From Siphonodentalium dalli (lineage: Eukaryota; Mollusca; Scaphopoda; Gadilida; Siphonodentaliidae), in the NCBI GenBank assembly GCA_032622095.1, contig CP136061.1, positions 85,348,324-85,412,323 of the forward strand: DNA of 64,000 bases, written 5' to 3'. The position numbers were made by a program, and so were the translations under genes. Shown piece after piece: positions 16,036 through 44,000 of the stretch. The notes under the pieces were generated by a model, which had not been told where the DNA came from, did not search any database, and saw only the letters and a list, made by a program, of their open reading frames with translations. Each line of letters opens with the position of its first letter. Position 1 is the first letter of the stretch.

Positions 16036-17699
16036 AATCGGATTAGACCTACCTATAACGCTAAGCACATAAGCCGCTTACACCTTTTAATTAGAGCCGG
16101 CCGCTTACACTTTACAGACGAAAAGTTGAATAAAATCAACAAATTTGTGATTTTAAAAACGATTCAAACGTTAATGTATTCCATGCCATAACCCGGACAT
16201 ATGTAGTAAATTTCAGTCATATCCATTTATAAACAAAGAAGATAATGCGACATCAAGTCCGCTACACCTTTTAATAGCTGCCGGCCGTTTACACTTTATA
16301 GTGTGTTTCAGAACGAAAAAGTTGAATAAAATCAACAAATTTGTGAATTAAAGAACAATTCAAACGTTATTATATTCCATGTCCTAGTCCGGACATATAC
16401 ACCAAATTTCATTAATATCCATTGAGAAACAACGGACTAAACGCCACATAACACCCGTTTACACCTTTTATTTGGAGCCGACCTCGGCCTCGGCATACAC
16501 TTTATAGTGTGTCCCCAAATCTGTTACATATTTCCGGTTTGAACCAAACTCTATATTTAGATAGCCTAGTACCCAGGCCAGCAAACGTATTTGACGTACG
16601 GGCGAGTAGCAGAGTTGGGACAGGGTACCAGTCTATATTTAGAATCATTTAAACCGGAAATGAAATCTGGGAATTTCCCAAGTTCGCGAGGAAGAAACGA
16701 CGGATTCTTTCAGGTATATTCTCATAAAAAGAACACATGTTTAAAAGCATCTTAGTTTATGGATGTATTTATTATTGCTTGACGATTGTATATTCAATGT
16801 ATTGAACAGTTTACAAGTTACAAAACTGTTAACTTCGATGGTCATTCAATATTCTGCTTCTCAGTGTTTCGAAACCGAAAGTAATGATGAACTAATTCAG
16901 CAATACTTTACATGAGATAAAATTGCGCATGTTGAGTAATTTCTTGGTCTTGAATCTGTGTTGGTATTTGGAGTACTAATAAAGTTGGTCCTGTCATATG
17001 AAGATGACCCCCCCCCCCCCCCTGATTTCGCCTGTATTGTAGTCTTTGGTATCGCTTCAGCTTCTCTTCGCTGACCAGCTTTATGGTCATATCCGACATT
17101 ATCCGTCGCGGCAATTTCTCGTCTTAGCATCGGAATCAGCCGATAAAACGGAATGTTTGTCTGTCTGTTTTTATACCGGATCCGACGATGCCACCCTTCC
17201 GTGTCGTTGTTTGTTCGTATCGATCTTCCGAACACACACCATGTTGAGATTGGAAATGTCGTTGAATCAATCCATACGCAGCAAGTCCCTGGATATGCAG
17301 CAAGTCCCCGGTAAACGCAGCAAGTCCCTGGTAAATGCAGCAAGTCCCTCACACCTAGGGTGGATTACGGCGGATTATAGTCATGCGTGTTTACACAACG
17401 ATATGTTTAATCAGTGGAGGTGCTGATTACAAAGGGCTTTAATCACAGGGCTTTAATTTGATCGTAATACTGATAGATTATTGAAGGGAATTGGACTGAA
17501 TTGTGGGACTGAATCATTGAATGAAAAAATTAAGAGTTGGATTTTTTTTTAGATGTTTTTATTGGTAAATGCAAACAAGTAACATGAGAATAGTAGAATA
17601 GCAACAAAAGAAAATAGAGCACAGTTTTATAAATATACATATATATATAGCAGTGAGCTGAAAGAAAAGTTTATTAGAATAAATTGTATATATAAATTG

Positions 17700-18142
17700 T
17701 GTATATACTGCTGTAAGTACCATCCTCTGGCCGTCTGTTGTTCTCAGCATCTGTTCGTGTACTGGCTTGATCTCTCTTAAAAATCTGTTAAAATGCTTGT
17801 CCCTTACTTCTGATGATTTTGAATTCCAAATTTCCGGGCGAACATAGAATTTTGCGAACTCCTTGGTTAATGTAAACTGTCCGAATCCAAATAAACTACG
17901 TTGCAATTCCTTGTACTCTCCGTCAACTATACTAAACAGTGCCTGCACTAACTCCGTTAAAGGTTTTGATTTCCAGTCCGAGTCCACTGTCTGTTTAAGA
18001 ATATGGTTCAGAGATTTACAATTGTTGTTGGTCCAATTCGATAAGTCCATCGCCAATCCCGGTAGTTGTGCTGTCGCGAATTTTTCAGTGAAGAGTGGCT
18101 TCATCCTGTTCACAAAGTATTCTGAGAATGCTGGTGCTGTTA
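17700..18142 (-). pseudogene. Element A transposase, 3' exon fragment (TNNNC type)
   Basis: An open minus-strand frame begins just after a possible acceptor ('ttctcag') near 18142. It reads YFVNRMKPLFTEKFATAQLP, then WTNNNCKSLNHILKQTVD, then a helical segment (LVQALFSIVDGEYKELQRSL), then FTLTKEFAKFYVRPEIW. The WTNNNCxSxNHxLK signature followed by this segment is characteristic of the C-terminal part of a MULE-like transposase clade distinct from B, C and D. Earlier exons, with the catalytic core, are missing. The frame runs on to 17559, but the last part is low-complexity YI-rich sequence and is probably not protein. Confidence 0.65.
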
Positions 18143-18159
18143 ATTATTCAGTCTGGTTA

Positions 18160-18378
18160 AGAAAACAAACAAATCTTCAAATGAGCTTCAAAGGAGAAAC
18201 TCCCAGAAAGTTCCTTTGTCCTACAAAAACAAACACCTGTTCAGTGATAATTAATCACCGATATGTGTTTACGCAGTGAAAACAAACAAATATTCAAATG
18301 AGCTTCAAAGGAGAAACTCTCAGAAAGTTCCTTTGACCTACAAAAACAAACACCTGTTCAGTGATTTACGCAGTGAAA
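18160..18378. repeat. Subterminal direct repeats of element A
   Basis: Two adjacent copies share 'caaatgagcttcaaaggaga' and 'acaaacacctgttcagtga', followed by 'tttacgcagtgaaaac'. They lie between the coding part and the right TIR. Element D has an analogous pair in the same relative place. Confidence 0.85.
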
Positions 18379-18949
18379 ACAGGAATATTTAAAAAATATA
18401 TAAATCATATTAATTAAATTATATTAAATAGTAAGTAGAATAAAAGAAATAGCAACTTAATAAAACTTAGAAAAACTATTTTATTTTATATATAAAAATC
18501 TACAAATACACATCTTAAATAATTATAAAGGGATAAAGATTTCCAATCAATTCTAATCAACTGCCACAAATCATAAATCAAATGGATAATAAAACACTGA
18601 TTAAACTCATCAACAACTCCACTAATCCACCCTAGGTGTGAGGGACTTGCTGCATTTACCAGGGACTTGCTGCGTTTACCGGGGACTTGCTGCATATCCA
18701 GGGACTTGCTGCGTATAGTAGGACCCCATTGATGTTCTACATAGGTAAACAGCAACTGAATATCAGGACGGTTGACTGCAGGGGTCGGGGTCGATTCGGT
18801 CCAGGGCTGTTTCGGCCGGGCTTGTTCGGCCCATGGTTTGGGCCGAACAGTCTCACCTAAAAATGTTTTTATCAGTAGGATATTTGGATGTTTATATATA
18901 TTTTTCTTTTGTATGTTATTTTATTATTATAATAAAGCGTTTAATCAAC

Positions 18950-20129
18950 TGCTTCGTGAAAGAAGGCGACACGAAAAAACAGTTTCCACTGGTATTCGTG
19001 TTAATGTCACGGCGCAGAAAGACAGACTACATCGAGGTGCTGCAGGCCATCATAGACAAGATCGGGGAGCCTGACGTTGATTCATGTGTGATGGATTACG
19101 AGATCGGTAAGTTTTTCTCCCAGTCATTAATAATAATAATAATTTTTTTAATTTAAATAATAAAATTCATGATAACACAAAATGATTTTCAATAATAATA
19201 AGTTTCAATAAAAAAAAAAAAATAATAATATTTTTAATATCGATCATTTACAATTTTAAATATATATACGCGTATATACTCATTCTTACTTTTTTGTTTA
19301 TTTCACAGCTGCATGGCAGGCTATAAGAGAGGTACTACCTGGTCGCGATATTAAAGGGTGCGTCTTCCACTGGTGCCAGGCTGTGGTGAAGAAGGTTGGT
19401 GATATCGGCTCGAAAACCGCCTATAAAAACAACAACCCAATCAAGGCGTACATCCAGCAGTTCCTAGCTTTGCCATTCCTACCAGCAAGCCACATCCTGC
19501 CAACATACAACAGTTTAGCCACAAGAGCCAGAACCGACCAACTGAAGGAATTCGTGGAGTACATTGGGAACCAGTGGATGAGAAATAGCTGCATCGCAAT
19601 CAGCGAATGGTGCATATTTGACCACCAAGTTAGAACAAATAACCACATCGAAGGTGAGAATCATTATTCATTTAAAGAACATATATACTAATATACAATA
19701 AAAATATTAAAACTACAAAAGTACAAATTTAATGAAATTTCTTCTTCTTCACCATATTTTTATTGAACTACAAAAGTACAAACAAATTTAATGAAATTTC
19801 GTCTTCTGCACCATATTTTTATTGAACTACAAAAGTACAAACAAATTTAATGAAATTTCGTCTTCTTCACAGCTTGGCACAGGCGGCTTAACATGAAGGG
19901 GAGCAGATTGTCTTTCTACCCGCTGATCCAAGTGCTCCAAAAAGAAGCTGCACATATCGAGGTAGCTGTAGCAGCGAGGGACCTCGAGACCGACATAAAG
20001 CAGAAGTACACGAAGATTGACAGAGACCTTGAGGCGATATGGGCATCATACAAAGACGGCACCATCAAGACAACTGAATTCCTGAAAGATGTGAACGCGA
20101 TCTACAAGAATGGCCAATCCAAGAAATAA
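18950..20129 (+). pseudogene. Element B MULE transposase, 5'-truncated, three exons
   Basis: Exon blocks are about 18950-19106, 19309-19653 and 19873-20129 (TAA), all with GT/AG borders and consistent phase 1. The first reads LINCFVKEGDTKKQFPLVFV and ends in VMDYE, the second acidic catalytic position. The second has GCVFHW, LALPFLPASHILPTYN and RTNNHIE, and the third WHRRLNMKGSRLSFYPLIQV followed by a charged helical tail. The whole segment is about 250 codons, with codon use clearly protein-like and no internal stop. The N-terminal third, including the zinc finger and the first catalytic Asp, is absent because the frame begins only about 60 bp inside the left TIR. It is thus probably inactive alone. 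Confidence 0.88.
19705..19872 (+). repeat. Three tandem copies of about 62 bp in a transposase intron
   Basis: Copies contain 'aactacaaaagtacaaa' and 'aatttaatgaaattt', the last ending at the acceptor AG of the third exon of transposase B. Each copy therefore carries a potential acceptor ('cttcttcac'). Confidence 0.8.
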
Positions 20130-20199
20130 AGAAGAAGAATAATTAATTATATGCATGTTCAGATATATAATTACACCTCACACTCTGTACTCTCTGACC

Positions 20200-20470
20200 T
20201 TCTCTCTAAAATTATGACATTATCTTCTGTCCCTTTGTCTCGCCTCCACCTCATATTTCTTCTTTCTATTGATCTTTTTTATGCCTCTATTATTTACCCC
20301 TACTTGACTTGCAGTCAAGTAGGGCTGTGCCATTGTCAAGGGAGAGGGCTTCAAATAAGCCTATGGCTTGTTGCCTAATCCCATTTTTCTTCTAAATTTG
20401 TATCTATTGTAATTATTTATCTGAATGTCCATAGAGGGAAAAATAAATACTGTTTAAACTAATAAAGAAG
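20200..20470 (+). mobile_element. LINE-like 3' tail inside element B
   Basis: A pyrimidine-rich stretch leads to 'aagcctatggcttgttgcc' and ends in 'aaataaatactgtttaaact'. A related tail ('gcttgttgtcaaatcc', ending 'aaataaatattgtttaaac') lies at about 24480-24752. The shared 3' end at two loci is what a non-LTR retroelement or its SINE partner would leave. No ORF is retained. Confidence 0.5.
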
Positions 20471-20942
20471 AAGACCTACGCAAAGAAGAAGAAGAAAGAA
20501 GAAGACCTACGCTATGTTTTAATATTTATAAATAAATAATGTATTTCCATGTTTTATCTTGTTTTTAATCATTAAATAACCAGATGTTTTATCATGTAAA
20601 CTGTATATATTTACTGTTTTAACTTGTTTTTAATCAATAAATGTTCATATCTTTCATCATATATTCACGTTATTGTTCGAAATTGTTGCAGTGTTAATTA
20701 CTATGTGTGTATACCCATTACTATTGTTGCGAATAAAACGTTAATTACAAACATAAATCTCCATTGTCATCAAAAGACCGGTCCCAAATCAAAGGCAATT
20801 AATATGTCGTCAAATTAACACCCACACTACCCAATTACCCGAATTGAATAGGGGCCGAACAAGCCCGGCCGAAAGAGCCCTGGACCGAAAAGTCGAAGAC
20901 CGAAAGAGCCCTGGACCGAATCGACCCGCTCCCGACTGCAGG

Positions 20943-21021
20943 ATGGTCGCGCAATTTCGAGAAGGCAGGCTCAATGTGTTCTGTAGGAATTAGCGGCAGT
21001 GCAAAGAGCTTCCTGAGTTGT
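20943..21021 (-). pseudogene. MULE C, exon 4, part before insertion B
   Basis: Follows an AG at 21022-21023 and reads RQLRKLFALPLIPTEHIEPA, then FSKLRDHPA. The frame is cut by element B at 20942 and resumes without a shift at 18773 as VNRPDIQLLFTYVEHQW, once the 9-bp target duplication is counted once. Confidence 0.85.
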
Positions 21022-21202
21022 CTGTAACGAAAGATTAAAACATACATATATATAAATGTCAACAATATCATTAGAATAAAGTTAAACATTAAAGATTTAT
21101 GATTTTCAACTATTTACCGTAATTATTTTCAACTATAATATCTCGAGTTATCCATTCTACGAGATGTGATAAATTGATAATATATATTAATATTGTAATT
21201 AC

Positions 21203-21330
21203 CTATATTCTTCACCCTTTTTGTTGTAAAGTGGACTCAGACCCTTCATCTGGATATGTCTGTTCACTCCTTGTGTCACGGTTTTGACGGCTGGTGGTGT
21301 AGGCAGCAGGCGAAGAAGCGATTCAAATAC
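21203..21330 (-). pseudogene. MULE C, exon 3 (catalytic segment deleted)
   Basis: Acceptor AG at 21331-21332 and donor at 21201-21202. Reads VFESLLRLLPTPPAVKT followed directly by VTQGVNRHIQMKGLSPLYN. In the related genes B and D about 30 residues with the acidic VMDYE / VVDFE motif and GCxFH lie between these two parts, so an in-frame internal deletion is likely. Confidence 0.7.
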
Positions 21331-21549
21331 CTAAAAAGATAAATATAAATATAGACATCGTGAGAGATGTGTGACGGTGTGATTAGCGGTGATTGAAATA
21401 GGCCTATACATATAGAAATCACGAGAGAATTGTGACTGTGTGAATTCACATAAAATTGTGATTGTTTTTAAAGCAATGATGTGATGCAGTAATTCTGAAT
21501 TGAATTGATGTAATTGTAATGAAAAAATGATAAAAAAAAAAATAATAAC

Positions 21550-21973
21550 CTGATCATAGTCTTTTGCTCTTCGTCTAGTCATCATGACGTATACAAGCGG
21601 CACCTGCTTCATGTGGTCCGCTTTCCTCACAAAAGCATGGATTGTACACAGCTGCGTGAACGGATGGAATGTGGAGTGATCGATGATATTGTTGTCGGTC
21701 ATTTCAATGTCGAAGTTAGCGGCTGATATGTCGGTGGTTTGGCTGTTGACCGTCGTCATTTCAATGTCGAAGTTGGCAGCTGGTATTTCGTTGGATGATG
21801 GTATGTCGCTGGTTGCGTACAGGTCGTTGGCTGTCTCCTCTATACATATACTGTGGTGACACGCTGACATTCAGTGCATATCCAGTCTATGGGAGATGCT
21901 GTTTTAATGGCCAATCTGTATGTGACAAGGCTGATCCCGGTATTGCATGTTCTGTGTTGCCATCTCTCACAAC
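21550..21973 (-). pseudogene. MULE C, exon 2 (finger end plus transposase core start)
   Basis: Acceptor AG at 21974-21975 and donor GT at 21548-21549. The first part completes the finger (CERWQHRTC, then WICTECQ). The reading frame then stops (TAG) and the continuation ETANDLYATSDIPSS is in another frame, so a small indel has broken the exon. A spacer with two copies of ISAANFDIEMT-like peptide precedes the MULE motif HAFVRKADHMKQVPLVYVMM, ending DYDQ at the splice. The duplicated acidic linker is unusual for the family. Confidence 0.7.
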
Positions 21974-22094
21974 CTACAAATAATAAGAGCATTCATTATA
22001 TTAAATATATGTATTTGGCGACGTACCGGTATATTGTATGTGATTGACGAATTCGACTTGTATTTGAAACGTAAGTAAAATAAAAATTACTAAC

Positions 22095-22176
22095 CTTCGC
22101 ACTGTAAACCGTGCTGTCTTGGACGCACTTCTCTGGAACACTCTAAACAATTCACGTCGGAATCTAGATCAGTCAT
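22095..22176 (-). CDS. MULE C, exon 1 (start of zinc finger)
   Basis: ATG at 22174-22176, a 27-codon exon plus one base, ending at a GT donor ('gcgaag|gttagt'). It encodes MTDLDSDVNCLECSREVRP and then RQHGLQCE. The first CxxC and the following C fit the first half of a PHD-type zinc-binding module, completed in the next exon by the sequence CERWQHRTC. This start is the only ATG in the frame and gives a plausible short acidic leader. Confidence 0.7.
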
Positions 22177-22269
22177 GGTTATTGTCTGAATGCCTTGCTC
22201 TTGCGATCCGCATCATTTATAGGAGTCAAGAAAAACAACACACTTATCACTCGCGAATGCTTTAAAAAC

Positions 22270-22490
22270 AAACCGTACGAAGTGTGAACTTGGTGATTAG
22301 TGCTTCTAAAGACTAATCACTGACTACAATTTTGTTGTTACAACATACTTGTGTGCGGTATAATTTACGAAACACAAGAAAAACAAAACGGTGACACATC
22401 AGCAAAGTGTGAAATCACTGATGAGCACTTCTAAAGACTAATCAGTGATCGGCAACCCTTCGCTGTAACAACATACCAAGTATACTGAAC
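22270..22490. repeat. Diverged direct repeats upstream of MULE C
   Basis: Two copies share 'gcttctaaagactaatcact' (second copy 'gcacttctaaagactaatca') and a 'taacaacatac' block. They occupy the place that the subterminal repeats have in elements A and D. Confidence 0.6.
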
Positions 22491-22611
22491 AGACCTGGTA
22501 CCGCCGATTTCACGATTACTAGCTAGTATATACACATATATTAATACAGAAATAAAACAATGGTAATAGACATCTTTTCATTCAACACTATAGTAATTAC
22601 AATTTTTTTCC

Positions 22612-22730
22612 GATGGTACGAAACGACCAAAAAGTTTGGTACGAAACAACCAAACTAATGGTACGAATCGACCAGAGTGTACGAAACGTCTTTGTACGAA
22701 ACGACCAAGGTACGAAACGTCCAGCACCCT
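22612..22730. repeat. Iterated 'ggtacgaaacgaccaa' block, possible TIR of MULE C
   Basis: At least six copies of 'gtacgaaacgaccaa' and close variants, about 20 bp apart. The style matches the iterated TIRs of A, B and D, and the position upstream of the C start codon fits a terminal repeat. No matching inverted copy was found to the left of 16900, so that end may be lost. Confidence 0.55.
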
Positions 22731-22739
22731 AGTGGACCG

Positions 22740-23090
22740 GGGATCGCAACCTGGTCAGGTATTCTGACAAAAATCAGAACTCGGTACAAGTTTGTCAGGC
22801 TGAAAAGTCTCATTCGATATCACTGAATAAAGATCCGAATGCAAAATGCCGACTTCCCCCATTACAACATTTGTCCAGGTATGTTGTTGTGGGTGCAGTA
22901 CGTACACTGTCCGATCGGGCGCGGACATTAATGGCTGACCCTGTACACATCTCGGTGTGTGCACATTAAAGAATGCTAACTAGAGTCACCACAGAGTTAT
23001 AAAGTTACTCGGCCATGGTAGCATCTGGACCAGTGCGTCTAACCAGAATTGGTTCCTGCACTGAAAAATCTACAAATACAGAGGGCAAAA
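22740..23090. other. No gene recognised
   Basis: Unique-looking sequence without an exon or repeat that I can support. Confidence 0.35.
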
Positions 23091-23094
23091 TAAA

Positions 23095-23525
23095 ATATAC
23101 TCATATTGGGTGCAGGTCAAGTGATACCCAAACCAACTGATACTCAACGAAAAAAGTCAAGTGATACGTACCTCATCTTGAGTCAAGTGATACCTTCTTT
23201 TCGAGTCAACTGATACCTACCTGAGGCAAATGATGCCTTCTATTGTTTTAAGTGCAATAATAATTTCTCTTGTCAAATCGAAGTGTATGTTTATGTATTG
23301 AATGTCATGTTGTCCAATCGCTAATTAGAAGTCAATCATTTGACTCGGAATTGGGTATCACTTGTCTTGGGTATCACTGGAGTCGGAATTAGGTATCACT
23401 TGTCTCAGGTATCATTTGACTCAGATGGGGCATCACTTGTCTCGGGTATAATTGGACTCGGAATTAGGTACCACTTGACATGTCCCCGGGTATCATTTGA
23501 CTCGGGTGTCATTTCTGGAAAAACT
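23095..23525. repeat. Minisatellite of 'tcaagtgatacc' type
   Basis: About ten imperfect copies of an 18-20 bp motif: 'tcaagtgatacc' on the left half (23117-23230), and the reverse complement 'ggtatcacttg(t/a)ctcgg' on the right half (23350-23510). The array is therefore itself an inverted arrangement around a spacer of about 120 bp. Confidence 0.85.
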
Positions 23526-23889
23526 ACACCACTCTAGACTCCCAACTGGGTGCAATAGAATGAACAGGCTGTCTTCCTATCCATGCACCCATCATGAATT
23601 TTTTGTGAGGCTTTCATTTGTGTAAGTCTAAATATTGTTTAATACTCAACTAAAACATGTAATTTATTATCTAGGGGGTGCCATGATGGACGAGGTAGTT
23701 CATATAGGGCACTCTTTAATGTTCAGTTCATATATGACATTCATATGCATATTTAAAATACTTAGAGGTAAATAAAAATCTCCCGTATCAATTTAATTAG
23801 GGTATAGGTTATATATAGAACTGAACATTAAAAAAAATGCCATATAATGGTACTGGCAAGCTAGTGACTCCACTCTAAACATAGTTTTA

Positions 23890-24345
23890 ATTGTCCCCCC
23901 CCCCAAATTTTTTTTTCGGGGGACTATTAAAATAGCCGGTGTCCGTCCGTGCGTGCGTGCGTGCGTGCGTCCGGAAATGGTTTCCGGATGATAACTTTAG
24001 TTTCGGTTATTAGATCAAAAGCAAATTTCATAGGTGAGTTTATCAGACCAAAATAAAGGTCAAGTTCGAATATGGGTTTGCTCCGCCCATTTTTGCGAGA
24101 GTTATGGCCCTTTTTTGACTTGGAAAACCCCTGAAAGTTGGTTTCCGGATGATAACTTTAGTATAGTTAATCGGATTCAAACCAAATTTGGTATATTACT
24201 TTCTCCCAGCAAAACACAGGTCAAGTTCGAACTTGGGTTCTGCCCGACCATTTTTGGGAGAGTTATGCCCCTTTTTCGACATAGAAAATTCATTTTCTTC
24301 TTTTTTTTGGTTTCCTGATGATAACTTGATTTTGGATTGTTTATA
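23890..24345 (+). repeat. Dispersed repeat R1, copy 2
   Basis: Starts with C-run/G-run stem sequence, then 'gactattaaaatagccggtg', a GTGC/GTCC simple run (23941-23970) and three 'tccggatgataacttta' subunits. It is in opposite orientation to copy 1. Confidence 0.85.
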
Positions 24346-24469
24346 TGAAAAACCCGTTTTTTGTGGATTATACTTCTACAAAGCCTCTGCTCCAAATGAA
24401 GCCACCGGTTTTATTTTTCCTATGTAAAACAATATCATGCATAAGAGAAGTGATCATTAATTGTAAATA

Positions 24470-24755
24470 TATGTGCTAATTGTTTTTTTCCCTCTGTTCT
24501 CACCCAACTGTAATCCATCAGTTCATTAATCTTCTCATCATGCTCTGTATCTCTTCCTCTTACTTAATCTTGTCTTCCATTTCTCACTGACCACTATTTG
24601 TAATCTGTTCTTTTCTGAGGAAATGGCTCTATATAAGCATCTGATGCTTGTTGTCAAATCCTCTTCAACCCTTCTAGTCTTCTATTCATACATGTGTCAT
24701 GTTTATAATTATATCTTTTTGGGAAGAAATAAATATTGTTTAAACCAACATCTCC
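24470..24755 (+). mobile_element. LINE-like 3' tail
   Basis: A pyrimidine-rich region ending 'gaagaaataaatattgttt', similar to the tail within element B. No reverse transcriptase frame is left. Confidence 0.5.
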
Positions 24756-24861
24756 TACTATACTCAACAGGATTTATGCAACAAAAGATATGAGCTGATG
24801 AGAGCTCCGTGGTCCAGTGGTTAGCGTGTCGGACTTGTATTTGCTGTAAACACATAAGAAA

Positions 24862-25005
24862 TGAACGGCGGTTTCAATGTGGTCATGGGATTTTGACCAC
24901 GAGAAAAATTCAGCAAACTGCATGAACCCCAAAGGGGTTCATGCGGAGTTTGCTGATTTTTTATCGCGGTCAAAACCCATGACCACGTTGAATCCGCCGT
25001 TTATT
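24862..25005. mobile_element. Foldback MITE (about 140 bp)
   Basis: The outer arm, 'aacggcggtttcaatgtggt', pairs with its complement near 24980-25000, and the centre is 'gaaccccaaaggggttc'. It directly follows a tRNA-like stretch (24810-24845), which suggests insertion into or near a tRNA-derived repeat. Confidence 0.85.
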
Positions 25006-25059
25006 ATTTATATTTATATACTTACGCTCTTTAAAACACTTCTCCAAATATGTCCGTTA

Positions 25060-25250
25060 TTTCGTCAAAAACACTTTTTCAAATATCTCCGTTATTTCGT
25101 TTATAAAAATACTTTCCTATTTCTATATTTCGCTCTATATTTCGCTATTTCGTTGTATTTTCCTATTTTGATTTTTCGTACTATTTCGCTGTATTTTCAT
25201 ATTTCGCTTTTTCGTTGTATTTCATATTTCGATAATTCGCTATATTTGAC
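25060..25250 (+). repeat. Degenerate 'tatttcgctatatttcg' repeats
   Basis: A low-complexity run of T-rich 12-15 bp units each containing 'atttcg'. It gives rise to an F/Y/L-rich open frame that is not considered a gene. Confidence 0.75.
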
Positions 25251-25472
25251 ATATTATGGGATATGGGATTATATGATAACCAACATTATGATAGTCAATC
25301 GAACATCTCGTGCCACCCGTGCTCGCTATTAGATGCCACTAGCCATCCAATCGTGATCTTTTGAACATCGATTACATATTGTTTGCTATCAAATCCTTGG
25401 CGTATTGGCTGACTAGATACTCAAGCAGTCGGTAATGTCCGATAATCCCCGGTGATTTCCGGGACCAATGTG

Positions 25473-25540: not shown

Positions 25541-25604
25541 TAAGGGGGCGTGTCTACCGTAACGCTATGGGGAAATCGGAAGAGATATTAGGGGTATGTA
25601 AATA

Positions 25605-29087: not shown

Positions 29088-32000
29088 GTATTGAACTATC
29101 AACAGCATGATTAAATACACGTGGCCATCGATTTTCGGCATTCAGCTAAAGTATTAAACTATCAACAGCATGGTCATTCTTAAAGCCATGTGGTGGTCCA
29201 TTTCCAATTATCATATGATTAATCTTAAACTGACGTGGCGGTGCATTTCCGTTGATCACGTGATTAACCTCCCAGATAGCATGACATGGTTGGGCCAACC
29301 AACATCTGAATGGTTGGGCCAACGTAGGGCAACCAACGTTGGGCCAACGTAATTTTGCTCATTGGTCAACGTTGGGCCTATGTTGGGCCGACGTTGGACG
29401 ATATATAGAGAGCGTTGGGCCAACGTTGATATCCAGACTACATTTGGTTGGCATAACGTTGACCCAACGGAGGGACAACGTTGGGAACTCAAACTAAATT
29501 GGTTGGCATAACGTTGGGGATTAATTTTTTTTGGCATCCAATAATCCGTTCATAATTTAGTTACCACCGTCAGCCACCATGTCACTATCAGATGCAAGTT
29601 TGTGAGAAACTACTATGCATGTTAATAAGTATTCCCCGCTATAACTTATATGTACGCCGGGCAAACATTCAGAACTTTGTGATTCCGAGAAAAATATTGG
29701 AAAAATAATTAATTAATTTTACACAAAAGAGTAGTTTCTCACAAACGTAAACCTATCTCGGATAGCGACCCGATGACCGATGGTGGCATCTAAAGAGCGA
29801 ACAAATCCTTGAATTCCAATTTGAAGAAACTGAATCCTTTATTTGCTAAAATCAATACCAGCAGCAACACTGAACGAGAACCAGAACAAAACGCGCAATA
29901 TGAAAAGCAGACGCCTGATCTGTTGTGCACGCGCGTATAGTTTGACGTCAGAGCTTTCTACGTCATCTACGTTGGCATTACGTTGGGCCAACGATATACC
30001 AACCGACAACATCCAACGTGTTTTATGACATATCGTAGTATATATTGTGTCAGCAATGTTTGTACGTTTAATTGTTTACGGAACATACAGCATATCGTTG
30101 AGATTTATATCACATGTATGTACGCTACATATGTAATTGGACTATCGTGAAGCTGTAATTGGCCGATGGCATGTTCGCGTTGGCCCAACGTTATAATTCC
30201 AACGGTTGGGAGAAATAGGCCTACGTTGGGTCAACGAAGGGCCAACAACGTCAACACAACTGATGCTGCAGTAAATTCCGTTGTCACGTTCGCGTTGGCC
30301 CAACGTTGGACCAAAGTTATAATTCCAACGGTTGGGATGAATAGGCCTACGTTGGATCAACAAAGGACCAACGTCAACCCGACCGATGTGCTGCGGTAAA
30401 TTTCGTTGGCACGTTCGCATTGGCCCAACGTTGGATCAGCGTTGTAATTCCAACGGTTGGGAGGAATAGGCCTATGTTGGGCCAACGAAGGGCCAACAAC
30501 GTCAACCAAGCCAATAAATTACGTTGGTATATTTGCGTTGGCCCAACGTAGTCATGCTATCTGGGCTTAAAGTCATATGGTGGTCCGTTTCCAAGACTCA
30601 AAATAAGTGGCTGGTCAAGGTCATTGTCCGACTAAAAATAGCTTATGTCCAGTGCACTTCCGTATCTGTCGGTCATTTTGTCCGATGCAAATTTCTAAAC
30701 AATCCCTATCTGTTTGGGTACATCCAAGGAGCAACTACTGGCCAAATCGGACTTTGAAAGTGAAAAATAGTTGTTTTATTTCAGATCAATTCAGAGTGAA
30801 TATAATTATGTCGTTTGAGAATTGCATGTGTATTTATTAATCAACGTAAAAAAATTTAACTTGAAAAAAAAAATAACATGGGTTTTTCCTGGGTGGCATT
30901 TGGACACTCACTAAAATATGCACATCATTGATGAATAATGAGTCGATTGGAAATTTAAATACTGTCTCATACAGTACATCTGAAAATTTGACAGGCACCA
31001 TTTTGAAATGACCAACACCATCTATTTGATGCCTGTCATTTTGACAGTCAGTAAAAAACAATATTTTGAGGCTTGTCCGTTTCAATGATCACGTGATTAA
31101 TATAAATGTGTGATTATTTCTGGAACCCATGTGCCATCCGTTTCCGATTATCATGTGATTAACCTTAAATCCACGGGGCTGTCCATTTCAGATGATCACG
31201 TGATTAATCTTAAAGCCACATGGCGGTCTGTTTCAAATAATCATGTGATTAATCTTAAGAAATGTGGCGGTCCTTTTCCGATGATCACGTGATTAATCTT
31301 AACTCCACGTGCATGGCGGTCCGTTTCCATTGATCACGTGATTAATCTTAAAGCCACGTGGCGGTTCATTTCCGATGATCACTTGATTAATATTAAAGCC
31401 ACGTGGCGTCCGTTTCCAATGATCAAGTAGAAAAATGCATTAAATACTTTTATACGATCTTTAGAAGTCACAGAAAGGCTTAAAGATACGGATGGCCTTC
31501 GCGATGGGTATTGCTTTTTAAATAGTCACATCCGTTAAAACCATCATAAACATAAAGAATATTAAAATATAGACAGATTGTGTGTTTTTTCACCATTCAT
31601 AAGTATCACATAAATACCATAATATTGTCAATATCGTACGCAGCGTTAATACACAAGCGCCATGTTATGTTACAGTACAGTACATAAAGGATGTGCGATA
31701 AGCAAAACACTCAACATCTCATAAAGTGAACCTTGATTAAAACTGTACCATGTTGTTTACAACATACCGTTACAGTACTCATATTTTTTTATATGGAGTG
31801 GGTCACAGTGAATCAATCTCCAAAACAAACAAAATCACCATGGTGTCTGATGGGGTTGAGTGTTTTGCTTACTGTATACTCTTATGTGCTGTATATAAAC
31901 AAATGCTTGTACAATTGTGTTTTGTGGATAATATCATATTCATACTATCATTATACTATATACTATCAGTATATTCTTGGGGAAATTTTCACAATTTGGT

Positions 32001-35000
32001 AACTTTTATTTCTAAAATATAGCCTACAATTGAGCAAGCCTTATTACCAAGGCCATCTGTGCCTTTTAAAAAGGTGTTAATAATTCTGAAATCCGCATGG
32101 CGGTCCATTTCCGATGATCCTGTGAAATATTATAAATGTGTGATTAATCTTATATCCATATGGCGGTCCATTTCAGATGATCATGTGAAATATTATAAAT
32201 GTGTGACCTTAAAGCCACATGGCTATGGGAGGCTAATTAAAGTCATAGAATTGAGAAACTTCTTATAAAGCTGAATGTATCTCCATACATGTAGATGGGA
32301 ATGTATCTCCATACTGTATCGCCGGCATCATGTTTATAAAATATTACTCATACGATCATTCATGTCTCTATATATTTATCATATTAATATTCTCGTCTGA
32401 TCAATAATACATATAATTAGACAATTTCTCAATATCGAAACTGTATTTCTGTTGAGATAACTCAATGTTTGTTGAGAGAAATACAAATATGCTAAGAATT
32501 AGAACTTCACTTTCCAACTTGGTATTTTTGTTCCCCCGAAAACAAATTTGGGGGGACTATTAAAATGGCCGGTGTCCGGTCCGTACGGAAAGTTTCCGGA
32601 TGATAACTTTATTTTGAGTTATTGGATCAAAACCAAATTTGGTATGTGAGGTTATCAGATCAAAATACAGGTCAAGTTTGAATATGGGTTCAGTACTACC
32701 CTGTATAGTACTGACCCTTGTCTGTCCAGAACTTTGTCCGAGTCTGCATATTTTGTCATTTTCAGGTCAATTTTTTTAAAACATACATCAACCTGCACTG
32801 CAACCTGTAACCTGCACTGGAAACTGTGCACCTGCGATTTTGAGTTCGGGCGGACTCATTTTGGCAGAGTTATTGCCATTTTTCGACATAGAATTGTTCA
32901 TCCTGGGATACATCGTTTGTCTGATCCTGTATTCTGTCATTTTCCAGTCAATTTTTTAAAAACTTGGCACAAATGGCAACCAGCTTGGGAACCTGCGCAC
33001 CTGCAATTTTTAGTTCAGTCAGTTTCCGGATGATGACTTTTATTCCGAACATAGCCAATCCTTCATTTAGCCATTGTGTCGGGGGACATTGTGGTCAGTC
33101 AACCTTTTATTCAACTATCTTTTACCTTAAAACTTAGATATATTAATGTAATTTTAACATCAAAATTGCCTTCAGACAGTCAGTATAGATTGTTTCTTGT
33201 TGTAAAATTACTAAAAATCAATCAAAGTGTTTACTGTTATTCAAGCCTGCAAATTGCATGTCTGTCATTTGCAGAGTGAGGTCCCCAGAGGGTGAATTTA
33301 GTGATGCTATCCCGCACAGCAGGCTAGCATCACCAAATTCACCCTCTGGGAACCTCATTCTGCTTAGGCCCTCTAAGGTAGACTTAGGATCAGATTGAAG
33401 TTCTCCAGTTGAAGTTGGTGATGTTCACCCATTGGGCACCTCGATTATGAATTTTATCTTCTGCAAATAGAGACTTCCCAGATGGGAAAACGTAACTAAA
33501 AACAATGTTAATTTGTTACTATAGATACTTACCAGAAGATGAGGCCTAAGCAGAATGAGGTCTCAAGAGGGTGAATTTGGTGATGCTAGCCCACTATGCG
33601 GGATAGCATCACTAAATTCACCCTCTGAGGACCTCATTCTGCAAATGACAGACACGCTATTTGCAGGCTTGCTCTTATCGTTGTGTTCTTACCCAAATAT
33701 ATTTAGCCACTTGACGATCAGTCTACAGTCCACTTTATCAGACGGTCATTTCTGTTCCAGGATATCAAGAGGGATAATAAAATAGCTGATATTTATGGAA
33801 AGAAAATGTTAGCAGTCGATGTCTTCTCAGCGGCTATAAGGTTTCTGAAAGACCACTTGTTTGCTACAGTACTAAAGAAGGTTGATAGGATCAACGCTGG
33901 AGATATCCACTGGGTTCTCACAGTTCCCGCGATCTGGGAGGAATCGGCAAAACAATTCATGCGTGAAGCTGCTCAGAAGGTAACTATATCGGCCAAAATA
34001 AATTGGATTAATGTTTCTGGTAACGGGTCTAAAATAATCAAATGTGGGTAGTTTAAAAAATTGTACAGTGATTTCTGTATAAAATTATTTTTAAAAACAT
34101 TGAATAAGAAATTTTGTTTCGCCAAATATATAGGCCAATGATGGAAATTAAAAACATTTCAAAGTTACCAAAAGTTTTGTCATGAGACACACTTTTGAAA
34201 ATGTCTGACAGGAGCCTGACATGTTTAAATCCCTTCTATCAGGTGGGGGTAGTAAAAAAAATGCAGGACGGTATGCCATTTTTTTTGCATCTGGCATTTT
34301 CAGGGACCCACCACCCCCAAACCTGCACAAAAAAAAAATTCTTCAATTTTTTTTACACCCACCCCCCCAAATTTCACTAATTCTGGTCTAAAACCACATA
34401 AAATCCTACTGATATCATTCATTCATAAGACTAAGAAATTATCTCCTTTAGATCAAATGACAGTTTAACCTGTTTCAGAAACTGTTTTAATGGGAAAAAA
34501 TGGTTACCGGTATTGCAGGCAAATGTGAAGATTTTTTTTCAAATACTGGCTGATACAGTGGCTGATGGGCATATCGCGACCTGATTTCCATTCTGTCCTA
34601 AGTGCATTTTTTGTGTTTCCGAGTAAATCGATTTTTAAATTTCAAAGTTCTGGAAATTGGTTGTTATTAGACTTATGGTGGATATCCTGGTATCTGCCGA
34701 TAAGTCAGTATTCATTCTGCCAATAACCATCAACTTCGATAAGGAGATGCTCTTTCTTATATGATATTTCGACCAGATTCGGGAGGTGGGGTGCGATTTT
34801 TTGCATTTAGCACAATATGGACTCAGTCTTAGTAGAATATTTTTCGTGGGACACTATGGAAACGGAAATTTTTTCAGGACCGGTCTGTTCCAAGTGGTGA
34901 TTATAAAAGAGATAATACGCACTTGGGACAACATGAAGAAATATTTAGTCTCAATTTACCGTATAACATGATAGAATTAGAGATTACAATGTGAGCAGAG

Positions 35001-38000
35001 TGTGATATGTGCGCTCTTTGGAACAGTTAGCCAGCACATCGACATAGAAACAAGCATTTTGAATTGGTGTTGTATGGAAAGCATGCGACTCTTGATGATA
35101 TATTGCATACGTAATGTTGATATGGCTTCATGGAATGTACTCTTCGTTAATGTTACATTGCGAATTTGATGCGTATATATTAGTCCAGGAGATATTGGTC
35201 GACATCTGCACCCCCACCAGGACTCAACTTCACCCCACTAATTTTCTTTCGTAATGTCTCCTCTAATTTGTTTCGGTTGTTAACAAGAAAAAAAGTGGCC
35301 GCAGAGACTCCAGACAAGATGGCGTCCATCGTGGCGGCCATTTTGTTTATATGCATCATGTCTCTTTGATCGCCGTTATAGTAAAGATTATATAAAAAGC
35401 GGTCTTGTTTCCCGCTCGATTCGTTATGCTAATATACAACCCTCACAAATTAGCCAAAAGTCCGACACCAGAATCCAAGATGGCCGCCGAAATGTGAATA
35501 TATGCTATTTTTCTTACATTTTACCACCTTTCGTTTGTCTCTATGGGAAAATATTGGCAACTTGGAGTGAATTTATACATTTATCGTATAGAAGAGTCAT
35601 TGACGAACACAATGGGATCATAATATACATTCATAGCGGGATAGTTTTGTCCAATAACAAGTTTCCCAAATGCCGGTATAATAGGTCAAAGCCGAACCAA
35701 CACTAATAACGCGATGTAATGTTTCGAATCAATGAAAGTTATTGCTATCATAACAACACCCATGCATATATATGTGCAGGAGATACTCGAGCTAGGATTT
35801 CTCTTATACCTGAGTTGTGGAATATTTATCCAAATCCAAGACGGCTGCCAAAATGGCCACCAGAAATAGAAAAATCGCCAAAAATTGCTGATTTTAACAT
35901 CAGTGAGCGTTATTGTCACGACAATTCCACACCTGTTAACTATTGTGAGTTGGGAACACTTAGGCGAAGTACTTTCATTATACCATATCCAAATAAAAGT
36001 TCCCCAGATCTAAAATGGCGCCCACAATGGCGGAAAGATTTTGAAAAATCACCGAAATTCCCTCATATTCACATCATTGGGCATTATTTTCGAGACAACT
36101 GCACACATGCGGACAGTTGATTTGGAAATACTGAGGTGAAGTAATTACCTTGCATCTCATACAATAAATTGTTTTCCAAATCGATGATGGCGCCCAAAAT
36201 GGACACCGAAATTTGAAATCAAGCTCACATTCCTTTACTTTCTTACGATGGTCGTTATTGTTACGCGAATTCTGCCCACAATTACATGTTCATATGGAAC
36301 ATTGATATGAAGTATTCATTTGAGTTTGGCAAACTCTCACAGTCAAGATGGTGGCCAAACTGGCGGCCAGAAATTGAAAAGAAGTCGATATTATCACATA
36401 CTAATTTCAACTTTTTGTCATTATATCGATACGTATGGACGATACTGTACATACTATAGGCCATTTATTAGTTGGGAATTCTTATCCTTATTCTTGGCGA
36501 TCTTCATTCGTGGTATAGCTTATGGTATAATTCAGATGCTACATATGGGATCTGGGCGTTATTTTGTGCGATAAACTAGAAAGGAATGTGGTCGATGCGT
36601 ATACTAGCTTTCAGAAGGACCTCGCTATCTGCGTATTTTCAGCTTTGGTGACCTAATGGGGATAAAAACATATACACCTGGTGATCTTACCAAACAGCCA
36701 CTTCTCAATATATGGATCATCAATTCACATACTCATCTAATGCACTGACGTACCCGGACAACTTATGTATATGGCTTCGAATGTTGAAAGCCAGACATTT
36801 GACGGATGCCTTTCTGCTAAGGCGTAGAAGACCATAATGCATAACATACCCACACGTCTTGACCATGAACAAAAGAAAAATCTTGTTGCGTACAGCAATT
36901 GTCTCATCGAACAAATTCAAGCAGATAATAACAATACGCACGGTGCTAGTTTGTGGGCATGTGTCATGATAGTGGAAATGAAATTGGACCATGACTGCAC
37001 CGCCCTTCTTTGGGTATGTTTTAGATTCAGACATGATTATCATGTGTGGCTTTGCTTTCCTTGTATGCTAAGACTGTTCCCATCCGTTTGGAAGCCGTTC
37101 ACAATCAACTGGACCAGGCGTGTACCACTGGCTACTACTATATAAGCCCCACCCAGACTGGGATGTAGTCTTAAAGACGATGCCTTTCATAGTTGGTTGA
37201 TATGTCATACACACACTGGGTGGTGGTCGGTATGGTTCAAGAAAGTACAAATGCCATCAACACAAGGGTGAAATGTTCAACGCGAAGAACATCAAGAGGA
37301 ATGTTACGTTGATGAGATCTTGCATTCAGTTCAACATACGTTGGGTACACCAAGTGATTTCTTGGCAACATCACCATTCCGACCATTTTACAATAGCCAA
37401 TTTATTTCATTCCCACAAACTAACACCGCGAGTATTGTTCTTCTCTGCTGGGAGCTATTCGACGAGACGACTGCGGGACATCACACAGTTTCCTTAGGAT
37501 CATGGTCAAGAAATGTGGGTAGTCGGTACATTATGGTCTTCTCCTTCGCAGATATACATCTATCCAAGGGAATGAGACAGCTAGCAACCTTCGAAACAAT
37601 GCCGAAGTTGTCCACATATGCCAATGCGTTCGCTAAGTTTGTGAGTTGACGAACCATCTATTGAGAAGTGACTAGCTAATTGTGTTCGCCAGGTGTACGT
37701 GTCGTTATCCACATGGGGATATGAGACACATACATAGAGATGACATTATGCAAGCTTGTATACTCATCGACCATATGCCTTTCTAGTTCAAGATGACGCA
37801 CAAATCCCATATTTAGCATATTTAAAATCGTAAGCTAGACACCTTAGAATGAATTGTTTGAAACGTTATGATTAGAGGGACCCTTCTCCCAGGAGGTGTT
37901 GAATACTTTGTCGGTGTGAGCGACCCCAGATTTACCAGACAAAGAAATGGAAGCTGGTCCAGATAATTTTGGACGTGATGTGGCAAATCAGAATCTGTTA

Positions 38001-41000
38001 TCAGGTAATTGTTCTAATATTACTGTTCGGCGCACCTACGGTTACGGCCATTATCGGTGCTAAGTGGAGAATGGATTTCGAAATGCCACATCGCGATATT
38101 AATGGTGGGTTTTCGACTTTCCAGAAAGATACGAGCCATTTTATGCATTTTGATACGTATTAAGTTAAACAAATAGATTGTTTATGTACAGTTTCGTCCA
38201 CACATATCGATATTATGACAAAAAGTTGAAATTAGTATGTGAAAATATCCATTTCTTTTCAATTTCTGGCCGCCAATTTAGCTGCCATCTTGACTGTGAG
38301 TATCAATTGCCAAACTCAAATGAATAATTCATATCAATATTCCATTTCAACATGTAATGGGGGGTAGAAATCGCGAAACATTAACGCCCATCGTAAGAAA
38401 GTATAGGAAATTAAGGAATGTAGGCCTGTTTTAAAATTTCGGTGGCCATTTTGGCCGCCATGTTCGATTTGGAAAAAAATTCTTGTACCTCAGTATTTCC
38501 AACTCAACTGTAAGCATGGGTGGAGTTGTCTCGACAATAGTATCCAATGATGTGAGGGCATTTCGGTGCCATTGTGGCGCCATTTTGGAAACTTTTATTT
38601 GGATATGGTACAATGACAGTTCTTCGTCTAAGTGTTCCCAATTCACAATAATAAGCAGGTGTGGAGTTGTCGTGACAATAACGCTCACTGATGTTAAAAT
38701 CAGCGATTTTCGGCAATTTTTCTAATTCTGGTGGCCATTTTGGGTGAATATTCCTCAACTCAGGTATAAGAGGAATCATAGCTCGATTATCTCCTGCACA
38801 TATATGCATGGGTGTTGTTATGATAGTAATAACTTTCATTGATTCGAAACATTACATCGCGTTATTAGCGTCGATTCGGCTTTGACCTATTATATCGGCA
38901 TTTGGGAAAACGAGATATCTGACAAAAATATCCCACAATTAATATATATTATGATCCCATTGTGTTCGTCAATGATTCTTCTATACGATAAATGTATAAA
39001 TTCACGCCAAGATGCCAATATATTCCCATAGAGACAAACAAAAAGTGGTGAAATGTCAGAAAAATAGCATATTTTCACATTTCGGTGGCCATCTTGGCTG
39101 CCATATTAGATTATGGTGTCGGACTTTTGGCTAATTTGTAAGGGTTATGTATTGGCATAACGAATCGAGCAGAAAACAAGACCGCATTTGATATAATCTT
39201 TACGATAACGGCGATCAAAGAGACCTGGTGCATATAAAAAAATGGACGCCATGATGGACGCCATCTTGTCTGGAGTCTCTGTGGCCACTTTTTTTTCTTG
39301 TTAACAACCGAAAAAAATTAGAAGAGACATTAAGAAAGAAAATTAGTGGGGTGAAGTTAAGTCCTGGGGTGCAGAGGTCGACCAATATCTTCTCGACTAC
39401 GTGTGTTTCTTTTCGCGGGAAAATTTTTCTCTGTTCGATCGCAACTTGAGTTGCAACCTGTTCGATGTGAGAGAATTTAGCAAAATATTTCAGTTCCATC
39501 CTGTAGTAAGTGACAGTTCGTAAAGCCGAACTGCACATAGAACAATATCGATCTGAATAATTATCTGTTGTATCTGAAACTCAAGATAGAATTCATCTTT
39601 GTTTTTAAAAGACAGGATATAACTGGCTTTATAAGTATTTTTTAGTTATAGGACATAATGGTTCTAAGAAATAGTGTTTTTATGCAGAACGGACAGAAAA
39701 GAATAGCTAATATCGCCACGAAAACAACAGATACCGCTTAGGGGCCGGTATCGTTAGACGCGGAATTTGATGTTGATTCCAGCGATACCCATACGGACGT
39801 TTCGTACCAGCATGTCACTTAGGACAGAATGGAAATCAGGTCGCGATATGTCTACCACATACATGCATTGGAGTTTCCAGGTCAGTTTGTGATAAGAGTA
39901 TGCTATAGGTCTAAACTGTGTGGTCAAATTCTATACTGCTATTATGGAAATTCTAAGGATCTGCTCCTCGAAATCTCATTCCGCCCGAGCATTTAATGTC
40001 AATTCCGTTGTGAGTTTTACTGCTTGTCGACCGAGCAATTTTCAAAGACAGATATAAGATAAGTTTAATAACATGTTATGTTAATGTTTACCTCTAGCTT
40101 CAACTGGGACATGTTCTCTGATAATGTTGTTGCCAAAAAAGCCAGCAAAATGTTGTAATCGGTGATTTATGTTTTCGCTCCGATTCCCACCCTGTACGTA
40201 CTTTTCGTTGTTGCCCGAGTAAGTTCAATTGTTGCCCGAGCAATGCTCTTTAGATTTCATAGAAATGTCCAGTTTTCTAGCGATAAACATCCCCATGGGA
40301 TGCCCCTTAGCTTTTGTCTTCAAAATGATGACTAAAGTATTAAAGGGGCATGCAATCAGACTCTTTATCAGTACATATTCAAATGTTATCAAATGTTATC
40401 AATGTCTTCATTTTCCTGATATAAACAGTATTCGTCATTGAAAACTTTCCTATACATTAGCGTAATGACCAGTTTCCCGCCGGAAGTCGCACATTTTACT
40501 TTGAAATTGTACTGAGCGACAGCTATAGGTCAGTACGGTATATATCGAATAGCAGGGCAAATAGTCAACGATGATACAAGAGGTTAACTAGTATGGCTTT
40601 TGACTTAAAATGAGAATGATCATAATACCGATTTTCCACAAGTGGCTTGTCGCGATTGGAAAATCGCTATTTGCTTGTAATGACGAATGATAAGGTGTTC
40701 AGTCAAAAGCCGTAGGTTTCCTGAATGCCGGCTGATACGGACCCTGGCTCATACAGACCTCCGGCTGATACGGACCCTGAAACATACGGACCCCCGGCTT
40801 ATACGGACCCTGGCTCATACGGACCTCAATTAAAATATACAATTTTATTTTTTATGTTTTATGTTTATTTAAATAAATTAAAATAATGACAACATACATA
40901 CAGAGATAACATGATATGATGATAACAAAAATGGACGAACATCAGACGAACATTATTTAAACTGGGGCGTACAGCTTGGCGGCTTCTTTCAGTAGTTTGC

Positions 41001-44000
41001 TGGCAGTCTCCCTCGATTTTCTCTCCTGTCGTCTACGCATCTTCCCTTCGGAAACCATCCTGACGTTTGTTGGTGTATCAGCTGCCTTTTCGTTGAGTAG
41101 GATGACTTGTACGTAGAATGGCAGACTTCCCTTTTTCGCCGCATGGTTGAGTCGATTGTGCCAACCTTCGCAGTCGTTGTTGGTGCGGATACTTCTGCCG
41201 AAAACTGTCCACGTATAATTATATCAACTGGCCAGACGGTCGAATCCATCCACGTCGATCGCACATAGAAAGGTAGAGCGAAGACCTGTCGACAAAGCTT
41301 GAACACACGGTCTCTCTTGTTGTATACTGGCTGTAAACCTTTCTCCTGGACATTTCTCCAAAGCACCTGACCGAAGTGGAAGGAACAACCATGGATTTCA
41401 GGATCGACGAACACCTCCCTCAGAGCTCCCCACATGCCTGATTCGAAATCGACGACAAAAGACTCTACTGCGATGTCTACTGTGATGCAAACACCAGGTG
41501 TCGTTGATTGCTAACTAGTACCTCTTTTCGTAAGAACTCCTTCTCTGGTAATGATGCCATGTAGGGTTCGTCGATCTCGAAAGAAAGGTCTTGTGGATCA
41601 TCGGGTTTGACTGATGCCCTGGCACGGCGACATGGTATCTCCACATAAAGCACAGTTAGACATTGTGGAATTATGCCAGTCAACAATAAATCAGTTGAAT
41701 ATATACCAGTTGTGTTTTTACTAACATGTTTTCATAGCAAATCAAACTCAGTGGATTCATCCTGATCACCATTCACTGACCATTCATCATCGCATGTCTG
41801 TTTATAAAACAATATAAAGGGATCACACACGAGTGTTTATATAACGGACAATGAATCAGTTGAAACAAGTTGTGTTTTTACTAACATGTTTTCATAACAA
41901 ATCAAACTCAGTGGATTCATCCTGATTACCATTCACTGACCATTTATCACCGCATGTCTGTTTATACAATGACATAAAGGGATCACACACGCGTGTTTAC
42001 ACAACGGCGAAGAGATTAATTAACACGATTCAATAAATGCTTTTTCAAGTCAGAACATCACCTAAATTCTCAATTAATACAAATATCGGTTAAATTCATA
42101 AATATAAGTTTGAAAATCACCAAAAAAATCACATTAATTCTCAATTAATACAGATACATGTGTGAAAAGACAATCATAATAATCTATTAAATTCATAAAT
42201 ATAAGTTTGCAAATTGCATAATTTAATTGAGGTCCGTATGAGCCGGGGTCCGTATAAGCCAGGGTCCGTATTAGCCGGTGGTCCGTAAAAGCCAGGGTCC
42301 GTAAGAGCCAGGGTCCGTATAAGCCACATACCGGTTTACTTTTTAGCTCAACTTTACTTTGTAATGTTTGAGCTATTTCCATGGCTTGGTATCCGTCGTC
42401 CGTGTGTGTGTGAGGGTGCGTTCGTCAAGCGTTATTTGTGAGGTAAATCGTATGGATGCACAATCGCCTGCCGAGGTATTCCAAAATACCGAGGTACTTT
42501 TTCCCATTACCTCGCTTTGTAACCTCGTCAAGTTATTCAGAATTTCACGCAGATTATCATATTGCATTATGGGATATACCTCGGAATACCGGCGCACAGT
42601 CAGTGGAGTGTGTTTTCATCTTGACCCAGATTCCGCTGCCTAATATCATTTTCACACACTAATGATTCTCATTGGTCCCAACACCTGTCACCAGAGACAT
42701 CAAGTTTTGCGCATGCGCAATCCGGTGTGTGCATACCAACGACTCACAGAGGTAAATGCTATTTTTAGAAGTATTAATATTTTCGTTTTCAACTGGCGTA
42801 ACCTTTCACGAGTATGCAAGCAGCTCAACGAGGTAAATGCTATTTTTAGAAATGTTTATTTTTCTCTCGTTTTCAACTATCTAGTTACACAATGATTTAG
42901 TTTTATCACGGCATTTTGTGAATTCATAATTGCAAAAAATATTAATATCTACGTCTCAATCCTGCTTCAATACATCTGATTTGTGGTAAGTTTTGGAGTC
43001 GTAAATTGGAAGTACATCGGTATGTCTGTGTTCATGGCGAACACGTTTTATCACCTATCAGTGTTATTTTTAGAAGTGTTTATTTTTCTCTCATTTTCAA
43101 CTGTCTGACTGATTCTAATTCCTAAGCTATAAAAACTTTGTGGGATCTTTAACGGTGTTTAGAAAGGATATCTAGTCATTGGATTACCTTCTAAAAAGGT
43201 GAGTTTGATGCCTATCATCAATATTAATGAGCGCTTGCAAATACCGAATGTGCGAATTCGCGTGTCTGCTGAAAGATACAAAGTTTTCTCGACTAGATTC
43301 TGTCAAAATGCACCTTTATCGGTCAAATTCTTTCGATGATTTTATGTAAATACATGTTAGCTATTATTGAACCCACCACCGCAACAAAGGGGGGGGGTAT
43401 ACTGGAGTCAGCTTGTCCGTCCGGACGTCCGTCCGTCGTCCGTCCGCCAGTAAATACAAATTTGTCCGAAGTTTTTCTCAGTCGTTTTTTGATCAATTGC
43501 CGTGAAACTTGGCACAGACATCAGTCGCCATGGGAACCTGTGGACCCGCGATTATGACGTCTGTCGGACTTTTTTTGGTGGAGGTATCCCCCCCCCCCCT
43601 TTTTCGACTTCGAAAATTTTTGCAACATGTATTATTTTGCCCGAGCTTTTATTCCTACATTTTTATGTCAATTGTTTTTTAACTTGGCACAGATATTAAG
43701 TACCATGGGAACCTGTGCACCTGCGATTATGACGTCTGTCCGACATTTTTGGTGGAGTACTTTAAAACACGGGGGTATCCTTAGTCCCAGGGGGACAGTC
43801 ACACCTCTAGTTTGGATCAGCTTTCCCCCGTTGAAAAACTAACAGTTTGACCAAACGACACTTGAGAAAAGTTTGTTTACAAAATCAACGAACTTGTTAG
43901 CTCGTCCACTCTGTAAATTTAGCATCGAAAAAACTTAATTTCTTCCATCTAAAACATAATTGCGTTTTGGACTCTGTAATTTTGAGAATATATAAATATC

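Follow-up and report, generated by a model that had tools for sequence, protein, structure and literature searches.

Probable Mutator-like elements with repeat-built ends, two of them nested in a third, on a contig of the scaphopod Siphonodentalium dalli

A stretch of 64,000 nucleotides from Siphonodentalium dalli (assembly GCA_032622095.1, contig CP136061.1, positions 85,348,324 to 85,412,323 of the forward strand), referred to here as the window, contains four elements, designated A to D, whose ends are built of short repeated units. We consider it probable, at about 0.7, that they are degenerate animal Mutator-like elements (MULEs), two nested in a third, with the known architecture of iterated terminal inverted repeats (TIRs) that has been termed type 2 Foldback. 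The transposases of B, C, and D form one clade, and their units are variants of one site of about 16 bp, approximately GGYYNNTWCGKNCC, for which the support is good but not overwhelming in the case of C. An earlier note on this DNA had described ends of repeated short units, with a different and unrelated unit in each element; the former observation is real, the latter was not confirmed, and the earlier interpretation is partly supported overall. To our knowledge, little is known about the transposase-binding sites of animal MULEs, and three families carrying variants of one repeated site would make a likely binding core readable by comparison. The results on target site duplications (TSDs), arrays, and profiles of A to D given below refer to the window sequence.

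Repeat-built ends and nested insertions

Mutually inverted arrays were sought as 8-mers repeated on the left and reverse-complemented on the right, which gave 33 matches in six clusters; of 20 dinucleotide-preserving shuffles, not one yielded a match. Elements A and D account for two of these clusters; the scan misses B, which falls below its threshold, and C, whose array is one-sided. Tandem Repeats Finder (TRF) listed arrays with a period of 20 for A (17276-17349 and 18641-18712) and of 16 for D (40730-40825 and 42231-42326). For B it listed the right-end array (20869-20920, period 16), leaving the left end with its three units unlisted, and for C an array at 22613-22723 in rows with periods of 16, 22, and 33. 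The TRF arrays and the profile matches, inverted at both ends, bear out the earlier statement that A, B, and D have several short tandem units per TIR; C presents a single end.

Element B (18783-20933, plus strand) is a MULE with an N-terminally truncated transposase, and is flanked by an exact 9-bp direct repeat, GACTGCAGG, as TSD at 18774-18782 and 20934-20942. Its left array comprises three units of the 16-bp site (18789-18834, plus strand; profile matches at 18789, 18805, and 18819) and its right array five (20850-20926, minus strand; profile matches at 20850, 20864, 20880, 20895, and 20911, with TRF). The transposase coding region, in three exons spliced by eye and with an approximate start, spans 18950-20129 on the plus strand, as judged by translation and its match to PF10551.

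C is encoded on the minus strand, its translated pieces flanking A and B on either side. Those upstream of the B insertion span 20943-22212 and include a piece resembling a PHD finger at 22212-21843, a further piece lies between the two insertions at 18726-18782, and the piece downstream of A, with the motif RTNNDTEGWH, occupies 16900-17271. Joining the flanks, with one copy of the repeat retained for B and at CCATTGATG for A, yielded one continuous C frame (...KLRDHPAVNRPDIQLLFTYVEHQWIDSTTFPISTWCVFGRSIRTNNDTEGWHRR). Since the joined flanks restore one open frame, A and B are both nested, as insertions, within the gene for the transposase of C. The right end of C carries six units of the 16-bp site (GGTCGTTTCGTACC; 22613-22722, minus strand), identified by TRF and profile matches.

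Element D extends from about 40730 to 42325, with six units of the 16-bp site at its left end (GGCTSATACGGACCCT; 40730-40827, plus strand) and six at its right (42229-42325, minus strand), both arrays being identified by TRF and profile matches. Its degenerate transposase pieces lie in more than one frame at 40960-41731 on the minus strand, and were recognized by translation and by their BLASTP matches to the B and C proteins.

An isolated unit of the C type (GGACGTTTCGTACCAG) was also observed at 39776-39811. Its score of 21.8 is as high as that of real C units, it is overlapped by weaker matches to the unit of D (39786) and to that of a small element E described below (39776), and it is possibly a degraded MULE end.

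One transposase clade and one repeated site

The B protein matches the MULE domain PF10551 with an E value of 3.1e-8 and 34.4 bits, against a curated cut-off of 27.6; D reaches only an E value of 0.23, and no match to this domain was found in the C pieces or in the open frame of A. The PHD-finger match of C (PF00628, E 5e-6) was obtained with a piece spliced by eye. FLYWCH had no match in the eight pieces scanned, a result that is meaningful for C only, B and D being without their N-terminal parts, and the only zinc-finger-like piece found, that of C, matches PHD and not the FLYWCH finger of Phantom. By BLASTP, identity was found at 60 of 184 aligned residues between B and C (E 8.6e-30), at 48 of 154 between B and D (E 4.5e-21), and at 59 of 138 between C and D (42.8%, E 7.0e-27), which are the closest pair. 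B, C, and D are therefore one transposase clade of three diverged families (31-43% identity), as the earlier note had proposed. A complete DDE catalytic triad was found in none of the three: B is truncated, D is spread across frames, and C is interrupted. Such degenerate copies would have a lowered activity, while their kinship with MULEs would be unaffected. The clade profile had no match among solved structures, and the candidate protein relatives were pattern matches, none confirmed, among viral and prokaryotic contigs, DNA of a kind that says little here.

Written inwards from the element end, a typical unit is GGCTCTTTCGGTCCAG in B, GGTCGTTTCGTACCAT in C, and GGCTCATACGGACCCT in D. Profiles of the units were matched in every rotation and on either strand, and permuting their columns supplied the null. 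In a common register and strand, p values of 0.0010 (B-C), 0.0007 (B-D), and 0.038 (C-D) were obtained, and the three-way score of B, C, and D was reached by none of 400 shuffles. The first profile comparison included nine rows for B, one of them from outside the array; with eight rows the results were similar. For a check independent of pairing, the window was scanned with every profile after the array it came from had been masked, and the 15 best remaining matches were taken. The arrays of the other two elements received 11 (B), 4 (C), and 3 (D) of these 15 on the correct strand, counts reached by 0, 0, and 1 of 300 permuted profiles. Conserved columns fall at matching positions in the arrays of all three elements (the best of 256 rotations): the GG, T.CG, and C(C) columns are kept among the units, and the spacer columns are free. 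Because the earlier note wrote the units in different phases and strands, the register that they share was hidden, and its claim of unrelated units in B, C, and D has to be given up in view of the profile test, the masked scan, and the single 16-bp register. The idea that units were swapped while the transposase was kept is likewise corrected, since the site is retained within this small clade.

Several points weigh against this picture. The units were cut out with anchor patterns picked after the sequence had been inspected. Taken alone, the C-D correlation of conserved columns (0.41, p 0.11) is not significant, and the identity of single consensus sequences is significant for B-D only (p 0.012, compared with 0.35 for B-C and 0.16 for C-D). 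A comparison of the best windows of whole arrays was near its null, with B-C and B-D at 13 of 16 against null maxima of 12 or 13, although we regard this measure as too blunt. Transposase and unit likeness also rank differently, the C-D proteins being the closest and the C-D units the least similar (8.5 of 16, as against 9.4 for B-D and 9.1 for B-C). As for the elements themselves, the earlier note took C as a probable further case of iterated TIRs; its right-end array stands, and neither its left end nor a second array of its unit was found in the window by pattern and profile scans. The TSD of D is tentative (GGTTTCCT/GGTTTACT, 8 bp with one mismatch), and among 300 random pairs, 30 shared an exact 9-mer within 25 bp of the two ends. 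Since a 9-bp match alone is this frequent by chance, the case for the TSD of B depends on its position at the array tips and on the restored frame of C. Duplications of 8-10 bp are exact in B (9 bp), partial and presumed in A, and tentative in D.

The consensus-only comparisons for B-C and C-D and the nearly null whole-array windows would suit an explanation of the B, C, and D likeness by chance or convergence. We consider that explanation very improbable, as it is opposed by the three-way profile test and by cross-matches that all fall on the correct strand, whereas the profile of the E arrays placed none of its 15 best outside matches in the arrays of A to D. One site in three families remains our reading of the units.

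Element A and the likely role of the arrays

Element A (17276-18725), MULE-like and non-autonomous, lies inside the transposase gene of C and has arms at 17274-17367 and 18623-18716, of 94 bp each and 100% complementary. Its left array (17276-17349, plus strand) consists of units of about 20 bp (GCAGCAAGTCCCTGGTAAAY) in 3.8 copies according to TRF, and its right array (18641-18712, minus strand) has 3.7 copies; four unit starts were extracted from each. Against the profiles of B, C, and D the A unit gave nonsignificant p values of 0.74, 0.17, and 0.37, and is thus unrelated to theirs. The sequence CCCTGG, common to A, B, and D, was tried as a candidate and rejected, since by eye it has the opposite direction in B and the A profiles were not significant. 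From a flank comparison guided by the reading frame of C, CCATTGATG at 18726-18734 is the presumed right copy of a 9-bp TSD of A. The left flank keeps only CCAT (17272-17275) of this presumed duplication, and the left tip of A is shorter than the right; a small deletion is the simplest account, the alternative being a 4-bp duplication.

Translation of A revealed an open frame of 194 amino acids (17562-18143, minus strand), presumably the C-terminal remnant of a transposase, which we take to resemble the corresponding C-terminal region in a different clade of animal MULEs. It had no convincing match in Pfam or NCBIfam, and no relation to the B, C, and D clade emerged (profile probability 0.2%, best BLASTP E 0.043). 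No repeat of 8-11 bp with at most one mismatch was found within 25 bp of the A ends. These negative results are in favor of A being a transposon of another type with repetitive TIRs instead of a MULE, which we regard as unlikely, in view of the resemblance of its open frame to another MULE clade and since the flanks as guided by the frame of C, with CCATTGATG on the right and CCAT on the left, fit a TSD of 9 bp from which a few bases at the left tip were deleted. We infer that A is a MULE of a different lineage with its own unit, sharing the architecture of iterated ends with B, C, and D.

Wherever an end of B, C, or D can be seen, it carries three to six head-to-tail copies of the site of about 16 bp, the ends of B and D being inverted, and according to the mechanism proposed here this repeated site is most likely the transposase-binding site. 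Several transposase molecules may assemble next to one another on an end and cleave the DNA at the adjoining tip, the arrays change through the gain or loss of whole units, and B, C, and D are diverged families of one clade carrying variants of one site. Diverged copies and all three families retain the core, in a fixed direction towards the element end, which fits repeated transposase-binding sites. The suggestion that iterated TIRs offer multiple such sites therefore gains support as their likely role, on the strength of the kept core. The transposase would then bind to the unit, and the copy number might influence efficiency.

In B, the three left-hand units, taken in order, correspond to units 1, 4, and 5 of the right array, agreeing at 16, 15, and 15 of 16 bases, so that one end has two whole units more than the other. 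Both ends of B have an identical outermost unit, the innermost units of D are likewise identical at its two ends, and the spacing of units is 14-17 bp in B and D and 15, 16, 18, 22, and 23 bp in C. Whole units evidently come and go, and the arms of A are 100% identical, which would both agree with passive arrays, where a stretch of the TIR is lengthened by replication slippage or unequal exchange and the ends are homogenized by gene conversion, without a binding role for each unit. This explanation seems unlikely to us, because three families whose proteins are 31-43% identical would not, by drift alone, have retained the same core columns next to variable spacer columns. The binding-site role preferred here might be extended to a recognition module of about 16 bp with near-constant spacing, kept across MULE families diverged to 31-43% and maybe traceable to the nematode element Tm1, a generalization that is speculative and, in our judgment, improbable. 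If it were true, related families in one genome could still recognize each other's ends, and activity would be tuned by the length of the array rather than by the sequence of the site.

The window contains other repeats as well. Element E (23115-23545) is small, with no transposase seen, and consists of two mutually inverted arrays of GAGTCAAGTGATACC-like units, six on the left and eight regular ones on the right, flanked by TTGGGTGCA/CTGGGTGCA (one mismatch). Its profile was built from 14 units extracted by hand, with one irregular innermost unit of the right end left out, and this unit is unrelated to the B, C, and D units (p 0.55, 0.19, and 0.70). An element of about 4.8 kb at 5039-9853 has the TIR tip CAGGTCTGGCAAATGTGAGAATACAGC (by eye), repeated TAGCTGTATTCAGCTA palindromes in its TIRs, and CTCGT at both flanks, a possible 5-bp duplication. 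Another at 29271-30565 has perfect ends of 15 bp (CCCAGATAGCATGAC, by eye), with many palindromic GTTGGGCCAAC units inside both. A large imperfect inverted repeat with arms of more than 1 kb, 72-95% complementary by segment, lies at 35217-39367, and a satellite-like array of about 64 copies of a unit of about 93 bp at 44549-50638.

Comparison with known systems

The earlier note knew of no description of this as a defined architecture, but published accounts exist for Aedes aegypti (PMC5225508) and for Tm1 (PMC3169594). Together with the suggestion in PMC13359780 that longer TIRs may provide multiple cooperative binding sites, they place both the architecture and the multiple-site idea in the existing literature. 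For molluscs, PMC6446971 lists MULEs whose TIRs measure 48 and 296 bp or are absent, and gives no unit structure. A literature search found no MULE ends of tandem units in molluscs, which does not prove their absence.

Of the 12 MULE families with long TIRs in Aedes aegypti, 10 have tandem repeats of 9-15 bp in a subterminal position (PMC5225508). One family, Muta1, whose nine units of 12 bp are separated by spacers of 3-4 bp, is termed a type 2 Foldback element and is active in yeast, where five natural derivatives of differing TIR length were all mobilized, each less often than an artificial derivative that had 250 bp from both ends. Muta1 and the other Muta families resemble the present elements in their MULE transposase, a TSD of 8-9 bp, and long TIRs with a terminal motif and tandem units of 9-15 bp. 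The unit plus spacer of Muta1 gives a period of 15-16 bp, near the 16 bp found here, and Muta derivatives vary in unit number. In contrast, the Muta transposases of 13 families are predicted to contain FLYWCH, whereas C has a PHD-like finger, and Muta1 is active while the copies in the window are broken; the likeness is one of architecture, by description.

Tm1 of root-knot nematodes belongs to a MULE/Foldback family with 1-9 copies of a unit of about 14 bp per TIR, asymmetric tips of 7 bp, and TSDs of 8-10 bp, mostly 9 bp, in 45 of 53 complete elements, according to PMC3169594. It shares with the elements described here the Foldback-like TIRs, the unequal unit number between ends, and the predominance of 9-bp TSDs, but its transposase is of the Phantom type with a FLYWCH domain. 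When its unit, motif C, was compared with the present ones, 5 of 21 comparisons lay at 0.017-0.033 of 120 shuffles, which is not significant after correction; the three Tm1 consensus sequences are near-identical. The likeness of the Tm1 unit to those of B and C is only suggestive.

Rehavkus MULEs of arthropods and annelids are tabulated in PMC6446971 with a PHD finger, a 9-bp TSD, and TIRs of 26-400 bp, and a minisatellite is listed after or in the C-terminal part. Of these features, PHD is found in C and the 9-bp TSD in B, never both in one element, a likeness by description. Foldback elements with composite TIRs containing tandem repeats, as cited in PMC3169594, include FARE of Arabidopsis and FB and Galileo of Drosophila; FARE is a plant MULE, while Galileo encodes a P transposase, and their likeness to the present elements is again by description. 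The plant MULEs with whole TIRs in tandem of PMC3310237 have a design different from the units described here. With an evidence base of three families of one clade and one outsider, A, the elements A to D are real and mostly ordinary, a fresh example of a described design in which the notion of unrelated units has been corrected.

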